From NCBI GenBank assembly GCA_002763895.1, contig NSLH01000004.1:1-64000 (forward strand): a stretch of 64,000 nucleotides of DNA, written 5' to 3'. Below the pieces are notes generated by a model. That model was not told the origin of the DNA. It made no database searches and was given only the letters and a program-made list of their open reading frames with translations. This DNA comes from [Chlorobium] sp. 445. Lineage in GTDB: Bacteria > Bacteroidota > Chlorobiia > Chlorobiales > Thermochlorobacteraceae. The stretch's first letter is position 1, and every line of letters starts with the position of its first letter. This document shows, one piece after another, positions 2,712 to 49,729 of this stretch. Both the position numbers and the translations under genes were made by a program.

Positions 2712-5700
2712 ATGCCTAATTTTATTCATCTGCACACCCACACGCATTATTCCATGCTCACTAGCCCGATTTTGCCTGCCGACCTCTTTCACAAATGTCT
2801 AGACTTAGGTATGAACGCCGTAGCTATCACCGACCATGCTACGCTCTTTAACATGCCTGAACTTTTCAGCGAAGCTAAAAAAGTTGCGCAGGCTCGCAGT
2901 CAAGCATTTAAACTTATCATCGGCGCAGAACTTTTTATTGCACCTACTTCACGGCACGACAAATCCACCACCGAAGCACATCACCTTAATGTCTTAGTTA
3001 AAGATGCCACAGGCTATCGCAATCTCTGCAAAATTCTTTCTCTTGCTGCCAAAGAAGGATTCTACTACCGCCCACGCGCTGACAAAGAAACACTTTTCAA
3101 ATATGCTGAAGGGCTCATTTGCACCACCTCATGCGACCGTGGCGAACTTGCTAAACTTGTGCTCAAAGATGATGAGCAGGGCGCTGCACAGTTTATCCAA
3201 GCCCATAAGGAAGTCTTCGGCGATGACTTCTACATTGAACTCGAGCGCCACCACGCTCCCGACGATTTACGGCTTAACGAAGGGTTGATTCACCTTGCTA
3301 AGAAGTTTGACGTCAAGCTCGTTGCTACGAACGATGTGCACTACCTTGAGCGAAAAGATGCAGAAATTCAAGAAGTGATGCTTGCTATGAAAAGCAAATC
3401 AACGCTCTCTACACCCAAGCGCATGCGCCTGCCTACCAATGAATTTTATCTCAAATCGCCTGCTGAAATGGCACTACTTTTCGACAACGCATACCACGAA
3501 CTTTCTCACACGCTCGAGATTAGCGAAAAATGCACCTTTCAGTTCAGCGACAGTGCGCCACAATTGCCTCACTTCAAAATCCCTGACGGTTTCAAAGACG
3601 ATTCAGATTATCTGCGATACCTTACCTATCAAGGGGCACGGCGCAAATATGGCGATCTTGATGCACTTGGCGAACGAGGCGAAAAAATTCGTAACCGCAT
3701 TGAGTATGAACTGACCACCATTGCCAAAATGGGCTTTAGTTCCTACTTCCTCATTGTCAGCGACCTTATCGCCGCCTCACGCAAACAAGGCTACTCGGTC
3801 GGTCCCGGGCGCGGCTCGGTTGCCGGTAGCATCGTCGCCTACCTTACCGACATTACGCGCGTAGAGCCGCTTCAATACGACTTACTCTTTGAGCGTTTTC
3901 TTAACCCTGAGCGCATCTCCATGCCCGATATTGATATTGACTTTACGCCTGTTGGCAAACAGCGCGTCCTGGATTACACCATTGAGCGCTATGGCGAGCA
4001 GAGTGTCTCAAAAGTCGTGGCTATCTCGACCTTAGGTGCAAAAGCTGTTATCAAAGATGTAGGGCGCGTTTTGGAGATTCCGCTCGAGGACGTAGCGCGC
4101 ATCACGAAGATGGTGCCCAGCAAACCGATTGGTGCTACACTGCGCGATTTTATCTATGGCAAGCGCGATAAACATGGCGGCTTTGAAATTGAACCCGTCA
4201 AAGAGTTGCAAGACTTGCTTAAGCACTCGGATGCACGCCTCAAAAAATTGATAGAGTATTCACTTGCTCTTGAAGGACGCGCACGCAATGTTTCAGTTCA
4301 TGCCGCTGGCGTCGTGATTACCAATGGCAGTCTTGATGATTATGTACCACTCTACATCTCCGACAAAGTCGAGACCGAAGAGCGCCGCTATGCCGATGAA
4401 GATACTGATGAACCTATCTCTCGCATAGCCTTTTCCAGCAAAGGCAAAGATGACAAGCAGGTCGTTACGCAGTTTGATAAAGACTGGATTGAAAAAGCAG
4501 GTCTTCTCAAAATTGATTATCTCGGGTTGGAGACACTGGCTGTGATTGATGAAACGCTGCGTCTCATTGAAAAACGCTACAAAGTTAGGCTTGACTTAGA
4601 AAATCTTCCGACTAATGATGCCAAGACTTACAAGATTTTCCAAGATGGCAAGATGGCAGGCATTTTTCAGTTTGAGTCGCCGGGCATGCAAAGTTATATG
4701 ATGCAATTGCGTCCGACGTGTATTGACGATATCATTGCGATGAATGCGCTCTACCGTCCGGGACCGATGGATCTGATTCCACGCTACATTGAGCGCAAGC
4801 ATGGTCGTGAAGCCGTCGAGTATCCGCATCCTTTGCTTGAGCCGATTTTGAAATCCACTTACGGCATTCCAGTCTATCAAGAGCAAGTTATGCAGATGGC
4901 ACAAGTGATGGCTGGCTATACGCTCGGCGGTGCTGATATTTTGCGGCGCGCAATGGGGAAAAAGGAAAAAGAAAAAATGGCGCAGGAGCGCGAAAAGTTC
5001 GTCAAGGGTGCTGCAGAGCGCGGGATTGATGCTGCTAAAGCCAATGAGGTCTTCGATATGATGGAAAAATTTGCAGGCTATGGCTTCAACAAATCACATG
5101 CGGCAGCATATGGATTACTGGCGTATTGGACAGCTACTTGAAAGCACATTACACAGCTGAGTTCATGTGCGCCATTCTTAACAGTGAAGCTGGCGACACT
5201 GAACGCATGCGGCACTTAACCGATGAAGTCAAATCAATGGGCATTAAAATTTTGCCGCCCAATATCAACAAAAGTGATGCACTCTGCACGGTTGAAGACC
5301 TGTCCAACGGCTCCAAAGCGATTCGCATCGGGTTTTCAGCTATCAAACATGTTGGCGCAGCTGCAAAAGAAATTGTTGCTGCACGCAAACGCAAGAAAAA
5401 ATCGTTCAACAACCTCTTTGATTTTTGCGCCTCCGTAGATTTGAGAGTCGTCAATAAAAAAGCCTTGGAATCCCTTGTCGAAGCTGGGGCGTTAGATGAA
5501 TTTGGCATTGACCGCGCAACGCTGCTGGCTAACCTTGAACGCGCTGTGGAATTTGGTCAGAGACAAAACCGCAGTGTTACACTCGGTCAAGAGGGCTTCT
5601 TCAATGATGAAAAGTTTGCACCCTTGCAGCAGCTCGTCTATCCTGAATTGCTCAACGCTGAGGCATGGAGCGATGCCGAAATCCTGCAGCGAGAAGTTGC

Positions 5701-40084: not shown

Positions 40085-41452
40085 TTACTTCTCATCACTG
40101 TCAGACGTATTTGATTTGCCTGACTTTTTCTCTTTATCAGCTCCACCTTTCTTTTTATCCATGCCGCCGGTGCGTACGGGAATAATCGGTGGGAAACCAC
40201 AGAGCTGTCGCCACGCTTCATAAGCTAAGCTCACTTCGTTAAGCAAGATCCAGCCTGTTACCTCAGTGCCTTGACGTAAGTAGGAGCGGTTTGGCCATGG
40301 TTTGTCATTCGGGTCGGGGACCACGAGGACGCGGTATTTTCCAGATCCGTCATCGACAGCATCTACGACAGCGACTTTTCCGCCAAATGTACCCACTGAC
40401 AGGTTTGGCCAGCCACCGCCCCAGACTTGAATTGCAGGGAAACCTGCAAATTGTAGCCGTACAGGGCGCCCCGTATCAATAATTGCAGCATCTAAACTGC
40501 CGACAAAAATCTCGGCCGCAATATCTTCTGAAGCGTTCGGTGTTACAATGCAGAGTGTCTCTCCTTTCTTGACAGTTTGACCTGGTCCAGCTTGAGCAAT
40601 GCGTGTAATCTGGCCATCAATTGGACTCATCACTATGCCTAAGTTGCGACGCGTAGAGACATTACCAAGTTCCAAATCTGCTTTTGCGATTATGGCTTCC
40701 GCTTTGCGTTGTTTTGCTGCAAGTTCTGCGTTAGCATTACGCACGGCTTGTATTTCCACTTGCAAATCCGCCGCAGCTTTCGCCGAATCAGCAATAGACT
40801 TTTGAAGTTTAAGCGTCGCAGTTTCCAAATCTTTACGCGCCACAAGACCTTGTTTTTCAAGTTCTACTGCTCGCCAGTATTGGGTACGCGCAATTTGCAC
40901 ATCAACGTTGGCTTGCTCTACGATCTGCTTTGCGACTTTGAGCTTTTGTTCAGCTTGGCGCACTTTGTTTTCAGCTTGCACAATTTCAAGTTCGGCTTCT
41001 CTTGCTGTGTTATCGCGTACCGCTCTCTGATACTCCACAAAGTTCTCTGCAAGAAATTTGGTATCAATATCACGCAGCGTGGCAATTGTGTCGCCCGCCT
41101 TGACGATTGCACCTTCGTTGACATACCACTTGATGATGCGTCCATCAATTTGTGCATCAATCGTCTGCGGGCGTGTTGCTGGCACAAACGAAGTTACAGT
41201 ACCTGAGCCTGCAATATTTTGCTGCCAAGTATTGGGAATAAACGCAATAAGAATGATTGTAAGAATCGTGATGCTAAATCCACGCGCCAATGGCTCCGCT
41301 GTCTTTGGCGTACTTGCCATGCGGAGTGCAGTCGTGTAGTAATATGGCACGGTCTCTTCAATAACGATTTTCTTACCATGTCCATTACCATGCCCATTTG
41401 TTGTGGCAATCTCCGTTTGGACTTTGACCATCTGAATTTTTTCTGCTGCCAT
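40085..41452 (-). CDS. HlyD-family membrane fusion protein
   Basis: 455 residues. An N-terminal cytoplasmic tail of about 55 residues with a His/Gly-rich patch (NGHGNGHGKK) is followed by one transmembrane helix (FSITILTIILIAFIP), the first biotinyl-lipoyl half (IDGRIIKWYVNEGAIVKAGD), a long alpha-helical hairpin rich in Gln, Ala and Lys (about 135-260), the second lipoyl half (SPIDGQITRIAQAGPGQTVKKGE) and a beta-barrel. The C-terminus is a lysine/serine-rich tail. It bridges the inner-membrane ABC transporter and TolC. Separated from the ABC gene by 20 bases. Confidence 0.9.
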   Translation of the reverse strand: MAAEKIQMVKVQTEIATTNGHGNGHGKKIVIEETVPYYYTTALRMASTPKTAEPLARGFSITILTIILIAFIPNTWQQNIAGSGTVTSFVPATRPQTIDAQIDGRIIKWYVNEGAIVKAGDTIATLRDIDTKFLAENFVEYQRAVRDNTAREAELEIVQAENKVRQAEQKLKVAKQIVEQANVDVQIARTQYWRAVELEKQGLVARKDLETATLKLQKSIADSAKAAADLQVEIQAVRNANAELAAKQRKAEAIIAKADLELGNVSTRRNLGIVMSPIDGQITRIAQAGPGQTVKKGETLCIVTPNASEDIAAEIFVGSLDAAIIDTGRPVRLQFAGFPAIQVWGGGWPNLSVGTFGGKVAVVDAVDDGSGKYRVLVVPDPNDKPWPNRSYLRQGTEVTGWILLNEVSLAYEAWRQLCGFPPIIPVRTGGMDKKKGGADKEKKSGKSNTSDSDEK

Positions 41453-41472
41453 CTTCTCCGTCTGCTAAAAGG

Positions 41473-43773
41473 TTATGTATTGCCATTGGTATCAGGACCA
41501 ATACGCAGTTGAATCGTTTTGTCTGCAAGGTCCATCGCTTCTTTTTCGGAAATGACTTGACGCACAAGGTCAGGGAAAAGTTCCGCAAAACGGCTATTGG
41601 CGTGGAACGACAGTTCTCGTGGTGAGCCTTGTTCACAAATGATGCCTTTGTCGAGCACGAAGACCATCTCGGAGCGGCGAATGAGTTCCGCATCATGTGA
41701 GATATCAATAATTGTCCAGCATCGCTCTGCGTATAGCGACTGGATGAGCTGTAACTTTGTGCGTTCTTCCAAGCCACCAAAGGCTTCGTCTAAAATCAAG
41801 ATGCAAGGCTTTGCGATAATGACGCGTGCAAAGATAATGCGGCGAATCAATCCTAGCGGGAGGTTGTTGCCCGCAGAGTTGAGCATCGTATCCAGTCGGT
41901 CAGGTAAGGCGCGAATAGCCTCGTAAATCTGTGCGGTTTTTAGTGCCCAGTCAATCTGCTCTTGCGGAAAGTGACGTCCCATCAAGATGTTTTCAGCTAT
42001 GGTGCCATCAAAAATTTCGTTTTCCGGCATTACAATGCCGACCGTCCTACGAATGTCGCGCAAATCAAGGCGTGTAATATCGCTGTTATCAAACTCTATG
42101 ATACCTTTGTCTGGCGGATAGATGCCGACAAGCAATGAGGCTAAGGTCGTCTTTCCTGCTCCACTTTCACCCACGAGACTGACTCGAGAGCCGCTTTTGA
42201 TGAACAGCGATAAGCCTCTAAAAACTTGATGTCCATCAGGATAACTAAATGAGAGATTGGTGATTTTGATATTAGGTGGCACAGGTCTTTTCTCGAAGCT
42301 CTCGCCTTCTTCGCGCTCAAGGGGTTTGTCAACAAGGTAAGACAGTTTGTCAATGGCTGTGAGCAAATCGTAATGTTCGGCAAATTGCGAGACAAGTTTC
42401 TCAATAGAGCTTAGCATGGCAATAATAATCAACTCAGCAGCGACTAGCTGCCCAATCGAGAGTTGACCTTGAATGACCAAAGAACCACCAACGCCGAGTA
42501 CGCCTACAATAGCCACGGCTCTAAAAAAGACTGAGCCTGCAATTTGACGCGCCAACACCATGAAGTGCTTGTGCCGTGCTTTGATATACTCTACAGCAAT
42601 GCTATCGACACGCTCGTAGATGTACTCAGGTGTACCAAAAAGTTTGAAACTTGTCTGACAGCGCCCGACCTCTTCAAGCCACGAGGCTAATGCATACTTT
42701 TTCTTTGATTCTTTGATACTTGACACCAAACCACCGCGTCCTAAGACAAAAATCAGCACAGGCACAAACGCGATGAGACTGAGGTTAAAGAGAATGAAGA
42801 AGGGATGATAAATCGCAAGCAAAAACAGTCCAATCACCATCACCAGTGTTGCGCTGACGCCGTCGAGCAAGAATTTACCCACCGTCTTTTGAATCGTCAG
42901 CACATCGAAGAATCGATTGACCAATTCAGGTGTGTATTCATTCTCAAGTGAGGATTGCTTCATTCTGGGCAAGCGATGCGCAATTTCAAACGCCGTACGC
43001 ACGAAGATGCGCCGCTGCAAGACATCGACCACATACTGCTTCATCACATCAAAGATGCCCACAATCAAAAGCCCAATAGCAACAATGATACATAGCCACA
43101 CCAACTGGTTGGTAAAGACACCGAGCATGACAGAGTTTACAATTGCCGATGCCGAGAGCGGTACGACCAGCGAAAGCACACCTACAATCATTGCATAGGC
43201 GATCACGACACCAAAGTCGCGCCTTTCCTCTTTAAGCAGTTCGATAAGCCGATTAAATATCACGCTAAAATGATCCTTATGCTCAAACCCAATGCTGTGC
43301 GCATCTTGTGGCTTTTTGCCATGAACACTATAATCGTGCAGACTGTGCTTTGAGCGACGAGTTATGAAGGTTTGCAATGCACCATCAAAGGCAAGAATTT
43401 GAATTACATCTTTCCCTTGAAAAATTTCAGCTACAGAAAGTTCACTTTCAGTGTTGGTGCGAAAGTTCAGCAGTGTTACGCGCTCATTTTTGGCAATCTT
43501 TTTAACCAGCAGCAGATCGTCGTTATACAGCATAAGCGCATTGACTGGCAGGTGATGCACGAAATCTTTTGCAGAAATGCCCATTCGGCGCAGCGATAAT
43601 CCATGCACTTGTCCTTCACGCTCCAATTCTTTCAGCACAGTCTCGCGCAAGAGGCCTACATGATGAAAGTGGTGGTGAACATCCGCCGCACTGATTGCTA
43701 AGTCAGCTTGTTCAGCAAGATACTCGAGTGCCCGTATCGCTTGTAGTTCAAGGTTGGCTTCTTGCATGTTCAT
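41473..43773 (-). CDS. ABC exporter with C39-like domain and degenerate signature motif
   Basis: About 766 residues. The first 150 residues resemble the C39-like domain of RTX-type exporters (LPVNALMLYNDDLLLVKKIA) without catalytic Cys or His. Six membrane helices follow (about 190-470), then the ATPase: Walker A GESGAGKTT, Q-loop replaced by VMPENEIFDGTIAENI, Walker B CILILDEAF and switch His in DISHDAE. The signature LSGGQ reads LPLGL, and the D-loop reads GGLEE. It heads a three-gene export unit. I use ATG 43773; a GTG five codons earlier is possible. No substrate gene is adjacent. Confidence 0.85.
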   Translation of the reverse strand: MNMQEANLELQAIRALEYLAEQADLAISAADVHHHFHHVGLLRETVLKELEREGQVHGLSLRRMGISAKDFVHHLPVNALMLYNDDLLLVKKIAKNERVTLLNFRTNTESELSVAEIFQGKDVIQILAFDGALQTFITRRSKHSLHDYSVHGKKPQDAHSIGFEHKDHFSVIFNRLIELLKEERRDFGVVIAYAMIVGVLSLVVPLSASAIVNSVMLGVFTNQLVWLCIIVAIGLLIVGIFDVMKQYVVDVLQRRIFVRTAFEIAHRLPRMKQSSLENEYTPELVNRFFDVLTIQKTVGKFLLDGVSATLVMVIGLFLLAIYHPFFILFNLSLIAFVPVLIFVLGRGGLVSSIKESKKKYALASWLEEVGRCQTSFKLFGTPEYIYERVDSIAVEYIKARHKHFMVLARQIAGSVFFRAVAIVGVLGVGGSLVIQGQLSIGQLVAAELIIIAMLSSIEKLVSQFAEHYDLLTAIDKLSYLVDKPLEREEGESFEKRPVPPNIKITNLSFSYPDGHQVFRGLSLFIKSGSRVSLVGESGAGKTTLASLLVGIYPPDKGIIEFDNSDITRLDLRDIRRTVGIVMPENEIFDGTIAENILMGRHFPQEQIDWALKTAQIYEAIRALPDRLDTMLNSAGNNLPLGLIRRIIFARVIIAKPCILILDEAFGGLEERTKLQLIQSLYAERCWTIIDISHDAELIRRSEMVFVLDKGIICEQGSPRELSFHANSRFAELFPDLVRQVISEKEAMDLADKTIQLRIGPDTNGNT

Positions 43774-44126
43774 GTCTCTATCTCTCACTCAATTTTCAAT
43801 GTTTAGACTCAAGTTCAATGTGTAAAATCATTGTCTAGCACTGCTCTTCGCTAGAGCATATTGTTGCATATCCTAACTACAATTTTGGCTACAACTACAA
43901 CAGAGTATAAGTGCAGGGAAGACAGTATCTGCCTTACTCGGAAACTATTCCAGAGAATAAGAAATTCCAAAAAAAAGTTTAATAATCTGACACTTTCTTT
44001 TTCTACGCGCCTTTATGAAGGTCGGAGACAAGTAAGTATTATTTTAAGGATTTTGGAATCTACCCAAAAATGCATATCATATCTACTAAATGCCTCGGCT
44101 TGTTCTTTTACAAAATTACTAACTAG
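43774..44126. other. Long AT-rich gap upstream of the riboswitch
   Basis: About 350 bases between the ABC exporter start and the riboswitch, holding divergent promoters for the exporter and for the metY leader. I see no convincing TAnnTTTG box on either strand and no ORF with family-like sequence; the 106-codon frame across 43861-44181 runs into the riboswitch and is not credible. Confidence 0.5.
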
Positions 44127-44310
44127 GCGTCATCAAGAAAGGCAGAGGGACACACCCAATGAAGCCTTAGCAACCGCTTGATTTTGAGTACCAGGGTCCC
44201 TAGAAACTAAACTCAACAAGGGTAGTGCTCAGACTGCTTAGAGCTTAGGCTTAGAGCTTAGGTTAAACCGGGGCTAATTTGCACCTATCACTTCTCGATG
44301 GGAAAGATGC
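44127..44310 (+). ncRNA. SAM-I riboswitch with expanded P3 arm
   Basis: The conserved core of the S-box/SAM-I aptamer is present in order: TCATCAAGA, AGGCAGAGGGA, CCCAATGAAGCCT, AGCAACC, GGGCTAAT, a P4 hairpin CCTATC/GATGGG, and AAAGATG closing P1 with CATC. AGGC/GCCT forms P2. A short pseudoknot between the P2 loop (CA) and J3/4 (TG) is possible. Between AGCAACC (ends 44175) and GGGGCTAAT (starts 44270) lie 94 nt, where a short P3 hairpin is usual; this insert contains a 6-bp stem TTGAGT/ACTCAA (44184-44189 with 44211-44216) and a tandem duplication. It controls the O-acetylhomoserine sulfhydrylase gene 244 nt downstream. The expression platform is unclear; CAGAAAG/CTTTCTG (44311-44317, 44344-44350) may be part of it. 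Confidence 0.85.
44237..44262 (+). repeat. 13-bp tandem duplication inside the riboswitch P3 arm
   Basis: CTTAGAGCTTAGG occurs twice, head to tail, at 44237-44249 and 44250-44262. Each copy contains GAGCTTAG, which can pair seven of eight positions with CTAAACTC at 44207-44214 within the same arm. Confidence 0.85.
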
Positions 44311-44535
44311 CAGAAAGCCTGCCAACACGCATGTTTTGAGCTACTTTCTGAACCTGTCAAAAAACGCTCAAGACATTTTTCGCTGTGCTACTCCTGCCTG
44401 TTTCATCCTTGAATGCGCACAAGCAAATTCAATGCAAATGGTACGTAAATGGTGACACACTATCCCTGCTCATCTTGATGCCGTCATCTTCCGACCTTTT
44501 GAGTTGTCTTTATTCATTTTCGTTTTTTTCTTTAA

Positions 44536-45891
<1,356 letters not shown>

Positions 45892-46093: not shown

Positions 46094-47355
46094 TTGACTA
46101 CTGCCAGAGATAACACCGTCCCTGCGGCAAATCGCACTTCAAGGCTTGTGCCTCCTAGCAAGCCTGCTGTATCTTTTGCAGAACAGTTGCTTTCCAAAAT
46201 TTATGCGCCGCATACCTTCCATGCTTTACCCGCAGAACCTTTTGCCTCACTGAATTATGCCGAAGAGCTTGCTCTTAAAAATGAGTCTCTTGCTGAGTTC
46301 TGGACTGTGCATCAACTCGATCATAAGCCACTACCGATTCTTCCATCACCAAAATCAAGGCAGTACCGCGCCACCACCAAACGCCGCGTTATTACGCAGC
46401 GCAGAGTTACCAAACTTTCAGTGAGCAGTGCTTATGCGCCTAAGTCTACCCCCGAGACTTACAGTTCCATTTTAGAGCCCGATACTCATCAGAGTCTCTA
46501 TCAATTTCTTGAAGCCAAGCTAAATACTTCTGCTTATCGACAACTGGCTGAGCATCTGAACTTTGTTATTGTACGGAGCAGTGACGGGGCGCTTTCCGTT
46601 ATCTTCAACATTGATTTTCTCAATGCTGAACTGACACGCAAACTCAAATTGCTTTCAGAGGCTTTGCAAGCGCTGCCACAGAAGATTGTATCGGCATTTG
46701 TCTTTCAAGACCCCTCACGCTCGCGCTACAGTTTTGAGCAAAAGCGTCCAGAAACGCAAGTACCTTTCAAACGGCTTTTTGGTCCTGAGAAGCTTTATCT
46801 AAAAATTTTAGGTAAAAAGTACAGTTATCACCCCACCGCCTTCTCGCAAGTCAATGTCTCTATGCTACCTACGATGTTGCAAACAGCAGAGAACATGCTT
46901 GCTCCTTTTGCTTCACGCCTGCTTGATTTGTATTGCGGCTATGGCTTGTTTGGCTTGTTTCTTGCGGAAAAATATGATGAAGTGCTCGGCTATGATGCGG
47001 AGGCGTTGCCATTCAATCTGCAAAGGAAAATGCGCTGCACTTCAAAGTCAAGAAGCGTATTGGGTTTTATGCCTGCCGTATCACTGGCGAAACGCTCCTG
47101 CGACGGCTGCCTGCTGTACATTCACATGAGCATATCATTTTAGATCCGCCACGACAAGGCACGCAAGCAGGCGTCTCACACATCTTAGCCATGCGCCAGC
47201 CTGAGCGTGTGTTACACATTTTCTGCGGGGTCGATGAAATTCCGCGTGAGCTTAAAGCGTGGAAGCAACACGGTTACAACCCTACGCACATTCAACCGCT
47301 CGATATGTTTGCAGGCACACCAAACTTGGAAGTCATGATTTTGCTTTCGCGCTAA
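46094..47355 (+). CDS. TrmA/RlmD-type RNA (uracil-5-) methyltransferase (frameshift in this sequence)
   Basis: About 421 residues when restored. The SAM-binding motif is LLDLYCGYGLFGLFLAEKYDE (split here by rule: LYCGYGLFG). After the break come ILDPPRQGTQAG and HIFCGVDEIPRELKAW with the catalytic cysteine, then the DMFAGTPNLEVMILL ending typical of COG2265 enzymes. The break is at 47022-47024: four A instead of three gives QKENALHFKVKKR. The N-terminal region is unusual: about 80 residues with no TRAM domain and no 4Fe-4S cysteines. Start is TTG at 46094; a later start is possible. Target nucleotide not predictable. Confidence 0.8.
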
Positions 47356-48326: not shown

Positions 48327-49729
48327 ATGCTCTACATCGTTCGGTCGGTTCATCTTTTCTGCGCGCTCATTTTATGCATTTGCCTCAGCGATACTTCACT
48401 TGCTGTTGCGCAAGAAAGTGATGCCTTACCCCCAGAATTTCACCGGCGCAACCGTGAGCGCTTCATTGAGCAAATGCCCGACAGTGCACTTGCGCTTTTT
48501 TTTGCAGCTGATGTCAAAAATCGCAGCAATGACACTGACTATCTCTACCGTCAAGACAATGCGCTCTATTACCTTTCTGGCTTACGCGAGCCTGCCGCTG
48601 TACTCATCCTCTTCAAGCACCCTGTGTCAGTTGGCACTGTGAAAACACAAGAATTACTCTTTGTGCAACCGCGCAACCCCAGTGAAGAAATCTGGACAGG
48701 ACGACGCCTCGGCAAAGAAGGCGCACGCGACGCCCTGCGACTTGCGGCAACAGAAACCTCCGATCACTTTGACACTTTTCTTGAAGCCTTCTTCAAAGCT
48801 GAAGGTCAGCAGTTCAAGACCGTTATGTTTCCCTCTGGTCAGCGTGGCGCTATACCTGAGGCGCAACGTAAAGCAGAGGCACTTTTCAGAAGCAAGGGGT
48901 TTTTCGTGCAAAGTGCCTTTCCATTCTGGCAAAGATGCGTGTAACTAAATCGCCAGAAGAAGTGCGTCTTATCCAGAAAGCTACAGAGATTGCTATTGCA
49001 GCACATTTGCAAGCAATTATGTCTTGTGAGCCCGAAATGCATGAATACGAACTTGCTGCAGTTGCAGAATATGTCTTCAAGAAAATGGGATGTGCTTACA
49101 CGGCATATCCTTCTATTGTGGGCTCAGGTGAAAACAGTGTGATTTTGCACCACAACGCCTCACATAAGAAAATGAAAGCTGGCGAACTTGTCGTGATGGA
49201 TATGGCTGGGGAGTACCTTGGCTATGCCTCTGATATCACGCGTACAATCCCTGTCAGTGGTAGCTTCACCAAAGAGCAGCGAGAAATTTACGAACTTGTC
49301 TTGGCAGCACAGACTGCAGCAATTGCCGAGTGCAAAGTTGGTGCGCCGTTTCATGCGCCACATCTCAAAGCTGTTGAAGTCATTGCCGATGGCTTAGTAA
49401 AACTTGGCGTAATTCAAACCCGCAATGAGTATCGGCAATACTTTATGCATGGCACGAGCCATCATGTTGGGCTTGATGTGCATGATCCGAATTTTGGTAC
49501 ATTAGGTGAAAATCAAATCATCACGGTTGAGCCCGGTATCTACATTGCGCCAGGTTCGCCATGTGACAAAAAGTGGTGGAACATCGGTGTGCGCATTGAA
49601 GATGTGGTGCTTATCACGAAAGAGGGCTGCATCGTGCTCTCAGCGGCTTTGCCAAAGACAGTACCTGAACTTGAAGCCTTGATGCAAAAAAAAGGTATTG
49701 GGAATTTGAATGTGCAGACACCGCCTTAA
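48327..49729 (+). CDS. Exported Xaa-Pro aminopeptidase, M24 family (frameshift in this sequence)
   Basis: About 467 residues when restored. A signal peptide (FCALILCICLSDTSLAVAQ) precedes the AMP_N domain (PPEFHRRNRERFIEQMPDSA, YYLSGLREPAA). The second frame has the creatinase-type catalytic domain with all five metal ligands in place: VVMDMAGEYLGYASDITRT, TSHHVGLDVHDPNFG, VEPGIYIAPG and VRIEDVVL. The break lies near 48921: CCC for CC gives SAFPILAKMRVTKSPEEV. It removes N-terminal residues before proline from peptides, here probably in the periplasm. Starts two bases after the PhzF gene. Confidence 0.9.

Follow-up and report, generated by a model that had tools for sequence, protein, structure and literature searches.

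A SAM-I riboswitch variant with an extended P3 arm, an altered ligand pocket and a replaced terminator in the metY leader of a Thermochlorobacteriaceae bacterium

Organization of the metY leader

We analysed a stretch of 64,000 nucleotides (the window) from a hot-spring bacterium related to Candidatus Thermochlorobacter. On its forward strand lies metY, coding for O-acetylhomoserine sulfhydrylase (44554-45891; TIGR01326, 708.6 bits against a cut-off of 495.1), and upstream of the gene maps a homologue of the SAM-I aptamer comprising P1 to P4, the kink-turn and the pseudoknot (44127-44313). The MetY protein is 92% identical to that of Candidatus Thermochlorobacter aerophilum (L007), and in the metY tree the two sequences are joined at 96/93 support, with G008 branching next.

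An earlier note on this DNA had proposed a SAM-I aptamer with a greatly enlarged P3 at this position, suggesting a covariance-model scan and an alignment with the metY leaders of related genomes. The scan, carried out by cmscan with permissive filters, bears out the homology. Specifically, the Rfam SAM-I model (RF00162) matched 44127-44313 of the forward strand with 49.4 bits (E 1.2e-9), above its gathering score of 44.4 bits. In addition, a family model, for which 20 other aptamers of the phylum were used and the window sequence was left out, gave 61.6 bits (58.4 with all filters off), the second-lowest family-model score among 73 metY-leader aptamers. A whole-genome search recovered the aptamer only as a 33.7-bit fragment, and when Rfam was run with default filters across all 64 kb of the window, the riboswitch at 44127-44313 was lost. 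Therefore, routine annotation may overlook this riboswitch; a long stem insertion can conceal such an element from default annotation.

Within the match, J1/2 (44135-44138) reads AAGA, as in the consensus, and is followed by P2 (44139-44168, loop at 44150-44154), assigned from the RF00162 match and by comparison with relatives, with its kink-turn GAGGGA..AATGAA intact. The 5' strand of P3, AGCAACC, occupies 44169-44175, with A45 at 44172 and A46 at 44173, and faces its partner at 44270-44275. In the four-way junction P2, P3a and P4 all pair, and P1 keeps 5 of 8 standard pairs. The statement of the earlier note that all core segments are present holds in outline; in detail, U57 is a G, P1 carries mismatches and the pseudoknot retains the two inner pairs of four. 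On these sequence grounds one feature of the pocket fails in this SAM-I homologue, sampled as one metagenome-derived sequence, and we therefore call it a variant, a term that does not assert SAM binding.

The P3 extension

The gap between GCAACC and GG(T/G)GC (GGGGC in the window) amounts to exactly 94 nt (44176-44269), in agreement with the approximately 94 nt reported earlier in place of a short hairpin. Alignment with the metY leaders of the relatives made the gap measurable in 69 of the 73 aptamers, and that of the window is the longest of these, followed by 60 nt (L038) and 46 nt (L008). In relatives of the same family the P3 gap spans about 24-46 nt; therefore, a long P3 arm is characteristic of the family, and the window represents the extreme.

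From the enlarged arm, a second sensing or folding module had been surmised. Our data do not support it: compared with shuffled sequences the 94-nt insert shows no excess structure (z = -0.37), a permissive scan returned no Rfam match of its own, and neither a second copy in the same genome nor a conserved counterpart in the relatives was found. The stem TTGAGT/ACTCAA attributed to the insert is present (44184-44189 / 44211-44216), but 58% of the insert shuffles hold an equally long (6-nt) perfect inverted repeat, and the insert was rejected as a structured domain on both counts. As for the 'duplicated pairing partners' of the earlier note, the duplication corresponds to a 13-bp tandem repeat, GCTTAGAGCTTAG, present in 2.1 copies on the forward strand (44236-44262). 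Slippage at this repeat accounts for part of the P3 extension. An origin from a mobile element or repeat was discarded, given the single copy in the genome; an anti-P1 role, by pairing between the insert and the 5' strand of P1, was likewise rejected (p = 0.18).

A regulatory module in the extension, acting as a long-range antiterminator or a second sensor, would draw on two observations: a duplex is possible between the insert and the terminator 5' arm described below (p = 0.02), and there is a shared 7-mer, TTTTGAG (p = 0.048). Considering how many pairings and tests were tried, both values are marginal and, with no excess fold, no counterpart conserved in the relatives and a sequence that is partly tandem repeat, we consider such a module very improbable.

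Ligand pocket, pseudoknot and P1 helix

When the metY-leader aptamers were aligned, 39 columns turned out to be conserved in 94% or more of the sequences other than the window, and the window departs from them at four. Two of these departures, G44154A and C44280T, form a compensated pair of the pseudoknot. The other two are uncompensated, and consist of U57 to G at 44272, in the ligand pocket, and of A to C at 44310, in P1.

The pseudoknot between L2 and J3/4 is made by A44154-U44280 and C44153-G44281, the first of which is G-C in the relatives. By sequence, the relatives have four pairs, and the window keeps the inner two and has lost the outer two.

At position U57, which we take to contact the SAM adenine as in the crystal structure, all 72 other metY leaders carry a T, which makes the G of the window unique among the 73. 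PMC3764141 counts U57 among the highly conserved nucleotides of P3; in the literature consulted, we found no paper with data on a U57C mutant. We also ran a pattern search over 394 genomes, admitting P3 gaps of 6-36 nt only, in which a T at the U57 position was found in 153 genomes and a single match (G116) had another base. The G116 match lies outside any aptamer context and was discarded, leaving no credible aptamer with a non-T at U57 among the 394 genomes at these P3 gaps.

A changed pocket raises the question of a changed ligand. SAM-I variants that carry changes in J1/2 as well as in the P3 internal loop, and are followed by a polyamine gene, sense spermidine (Salvail et al. 2023, PMC10853860). 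The window element shares with them the SAM-I fold and a change in the SAM-contacting P3 internal loop, to which U57 belongs, and U57G might accordingly have shifted ligand specificity with metY still under regulation. Unlike those variants, however, it keeps J1/2 AAGA unchanged, precedes metY rather than a polyamine gene, and has a damaged and weakened P1; it is also a single sequence, the pattern search of the 394 genomes having revealed no lineage of such variants. A switch to another ligand therefore appears unlikely to us.

The P1 5' strand GCGTCATC (44127-44134) faces GATGCCAG (44306-44313), and its 5 standard pairs of 8 are the fewest among the 73 metY-leader aptamers. As the alignment with the other metY leaders shows, the A to C change at 44310, in the 3' strand, gives a T-C mismatch. 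A new outer helix, AGGC/GCCU, is present in the best aptamer-type fold; it needs a 7-nt internal loop, and chance would be expected to produce it in about 14% of shuffled flanks. In the predicted folds, this helix could restore competition. The best fold is more stable than the aptamer-type fold by about 5 kcal/mol. We also considered whether the aptamer fold is unusually costly relative to the best fold, and dropped the idea, its cost of 10.5 kcal/mol being only rank 14 of 73.

Antiterminator and terminator

In the relatives, CAGAAAG(A), adjoining P1, pairs with (T)CTTTCTG to give the antiterminator, and CTTTC is also part of the terminator stem AAGCCTCTTTC/GAAAGAGGCTT. In G008 and L008, P1 and the antiterminator overlap by 3 nt, and the antiterminator and the terminator by 6 nt.

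In the window, the antiterminator strands CAGAAAG (44311-44317) and CTTTCTG (44344-44350) are identical to those of the relatives and, by position, P1 extends only to C44311 of the antiterminator. The intrinsic terminator (44331-44380) has been replaced: it consists of ATGTTTTGAGC (44331-44341) and GCTCAAGACAT (44366-44376) followed by a U tract, and forms an 11-bp perfect hairpin whose sequence differs from that of the relatives' terminator. This hairpin is well beyond random expectation (z = -3.33, 0/200 shuffles; stem length p = 0.002), and simple decay of the leader, terminator included, is ruled out by its rebuilding. CTTTCTG sits in the terminator loop and has no base in common with the stem; therefore, competition between antiterminator and terminator can be at most topological.

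An error of assembly or sequencing in the metagenome-derived contig might have made the long P3 or the core changes. The draft genome consists of 81 contigs, a tandem repeat is a typical trouble spot, and a neighbouring gene is apparently split between frames (48327-49729). Against such an error, the changes are spread and structured, including a compensated pseudoknot pair and a perfect new terminator, and the insert has no match elsewhere in the genome and is therefore no simple chimera. We judge an artefact of this kind to be improbable. Still harder to credit is a combined proposal, in which P3, through pairing of its repeat to the new terminator's 5' arm, would serve as a long-range antiterminator and U57G would have altered the ligand of the pocket.

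The metY leader in related genomes

In comparisons of the window with its relatives, metY is saturated at its fourfold-degenerate sites (32-40% identity), and the aptamer core is nonetheless identical to those of family members at 72-79 of 98 positions. An unconstrained aptamer would no longer be recognisable over such a distance; therefore, this one must have worked during most of the period after the split. The core showed no significant acceleration, with 12 changes on the window branch against 6 in G008 (p = 0.24).

The closest sister, L007, has a shorter metY leader (L007 3599-4001) without a recognisable aptamer: with all filters off, the highest score was 2.3 bits (E 2.3), for a match lying where the aptamer would be expected. 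G003, from another genus of Thermochlorobacteriaceae, also has a metY without a SAM-I aptamer. Taken together, these two leaders indicate that riboswitch loss appears recurrent in Thermochlorobacteriaceae. The G003 leader carries a terminator-like hairpin, AAAGCCGTT..AACGGCTTTTTG (L096 2860-3000), which suggests that the terminator can outlast the aptamer. No SAM-IV riboswitch was found elsewhere in Thermochlorobacteriaceae.

In the L007 leader, a possible remnant was observed at 3766-3888, along with a T run and the small hairpin ATACC/GGTAT, none of them significant. The ordered motifs CATCA..AAGGCA..GTGAA..CTTAGCA, picked out by eye as an aptamer remnant, were rejected (alignment p = 0.05-0.46; 2.3 bits).

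A weakened or a working attenuator

From the leaders of the relatives and by analogy with known SAM-I attenuators, we infer that the ancestral element was a SAM-I transcription attenuator controlling metY in Thermochlorobacteriaceae. In the relatives, SAM binding would stabilise P1, P1 would withdraw CAG from the antiterminator CAGAAAG/CTTTCTG, and the terminator would then form and stop metY transcription. The window still encodes the fold and an intrinsic terminator; with U57 replaced by G, only 4-5 pairs left in P1, and almost no bases shared any longer among P1, antiterminator and terminator, SAM-dependent switching has probably been weakened or is being lost. The enlarged P3 loop would be one of the tolerated changes. 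More telling changes are the lesions of the SAM pocket and of P1 together with the rewired terminator, all of which the earlier note had overlooked and on which the interpretation of the element depends.

Accordingly, our leading explanation, which we hold tentatively and would place just short of probable, is a SAM-I attenuator that was under selection until recently and is now weakened or being lost, where both the loss of the SAM response and its timing are read from the comparisons above. Counting in its favour are the U57G change unique among the 73 aptamers, the fewest P1 pairs, the second-lowest family-model score, the disappearance of the base overlaps seen in G008 and L008, and the absence of the aptamer in L007 and G003. 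Counting against it are the constraint on the core, the compensated pseudoknot, the intact CAGAAAG/CTTTCTG, the new perfect terminator, the non-significant excess of core changes and the possible new outer helix of P1.

A serious rival draws on the intact terminator and largely intact core, and holds that the SAM-I off switch still works, its platform being rewired and its P3 extension being neutral and grown by slippage. On SAM binding, a P1 extended by AGGC/GCCU would trap the antiterminator strand, and the new 11-bp hairpin would terminate. Core constraint over saturated fourfold sites, the compensated pseudoknot change, a terminator rebuilt to a degree reached in none of 200 shuffles and the outer helix in the best aptamer-type fold are all consistent with such a switch, as are the differences in distal P3 length among the relatives and the variable insertions known from other riboswitches (PMC2258182). 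It has to accommodate, on the other side, a G at U57 in the pocket, an outer helix that chance would sometimes supply and that requires the internal loop, the lack of any base common to antiterminator and terminator, and an aptamer-type fold that is not the best one. We consider a working switch a real possibility, if a rather doubtful one.

Comparison with known systems helps to place the element. With the metY-leader SAM-I elements of G008, L008 and L010, the window shares the sequence family, the P1-P4 layout, J1/2, the kink-turn, a two-pair pseudoknot, CAGAAAG/CTTTCTG and a terminator before metY; it differs from them by a P3 of 94 nt against 24-46, by the G at U57, by 5 of 8 pairs in P1 and by a terminator of different sequence that has no base in common with the antiterminator. 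Barrick and Breaker (2007, PMC2258182) describe variable stem insertions in riboswitches as leaving the aptamer core undisturbed, and the insertion of the window resembles these in that it is long, lacks conservation and lies at a distal position where insertions are tolerated. Those insertions are said to form stable stem-loops, whereas the insert of the window folds like its shuffles and is accompanied by core lesions.

Riboswitch loss is ordinarily visible only as absence. Here, one metY leader is found in three states, intact (G008, L008, L010), altered (window) and absent (L007, G003), which makes the order of change in the pocket, the P1 linkage and the terminator directly testable.

Genes flanking metY

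Upstream of metY, a divergent ABC exporter and an HlyD gene are present in both the window and L007 (82-84% identity), and were not found beside metY in the compared stretches of G008, L008, L009, L010 and L094. In the window (40085-43788), the exporter and the HlyD-type adaptor are distantly like NHLP bacteriocin export, with scores far below cut-offs. On the other side of metY, an open reading frame of the RlmD/TrmA methyltransferase type (46094-47143) has partial profile matches, also far below cut-offs, and is possibly frameshifted. Further downstream, a peptidase-like gene (48327-49729), by eye of the Xaa-Pro aminopeptidase type, is split into 48327-48944 and 48935-49729, and these overlapping frames may represent a frameshift or an assembly error.
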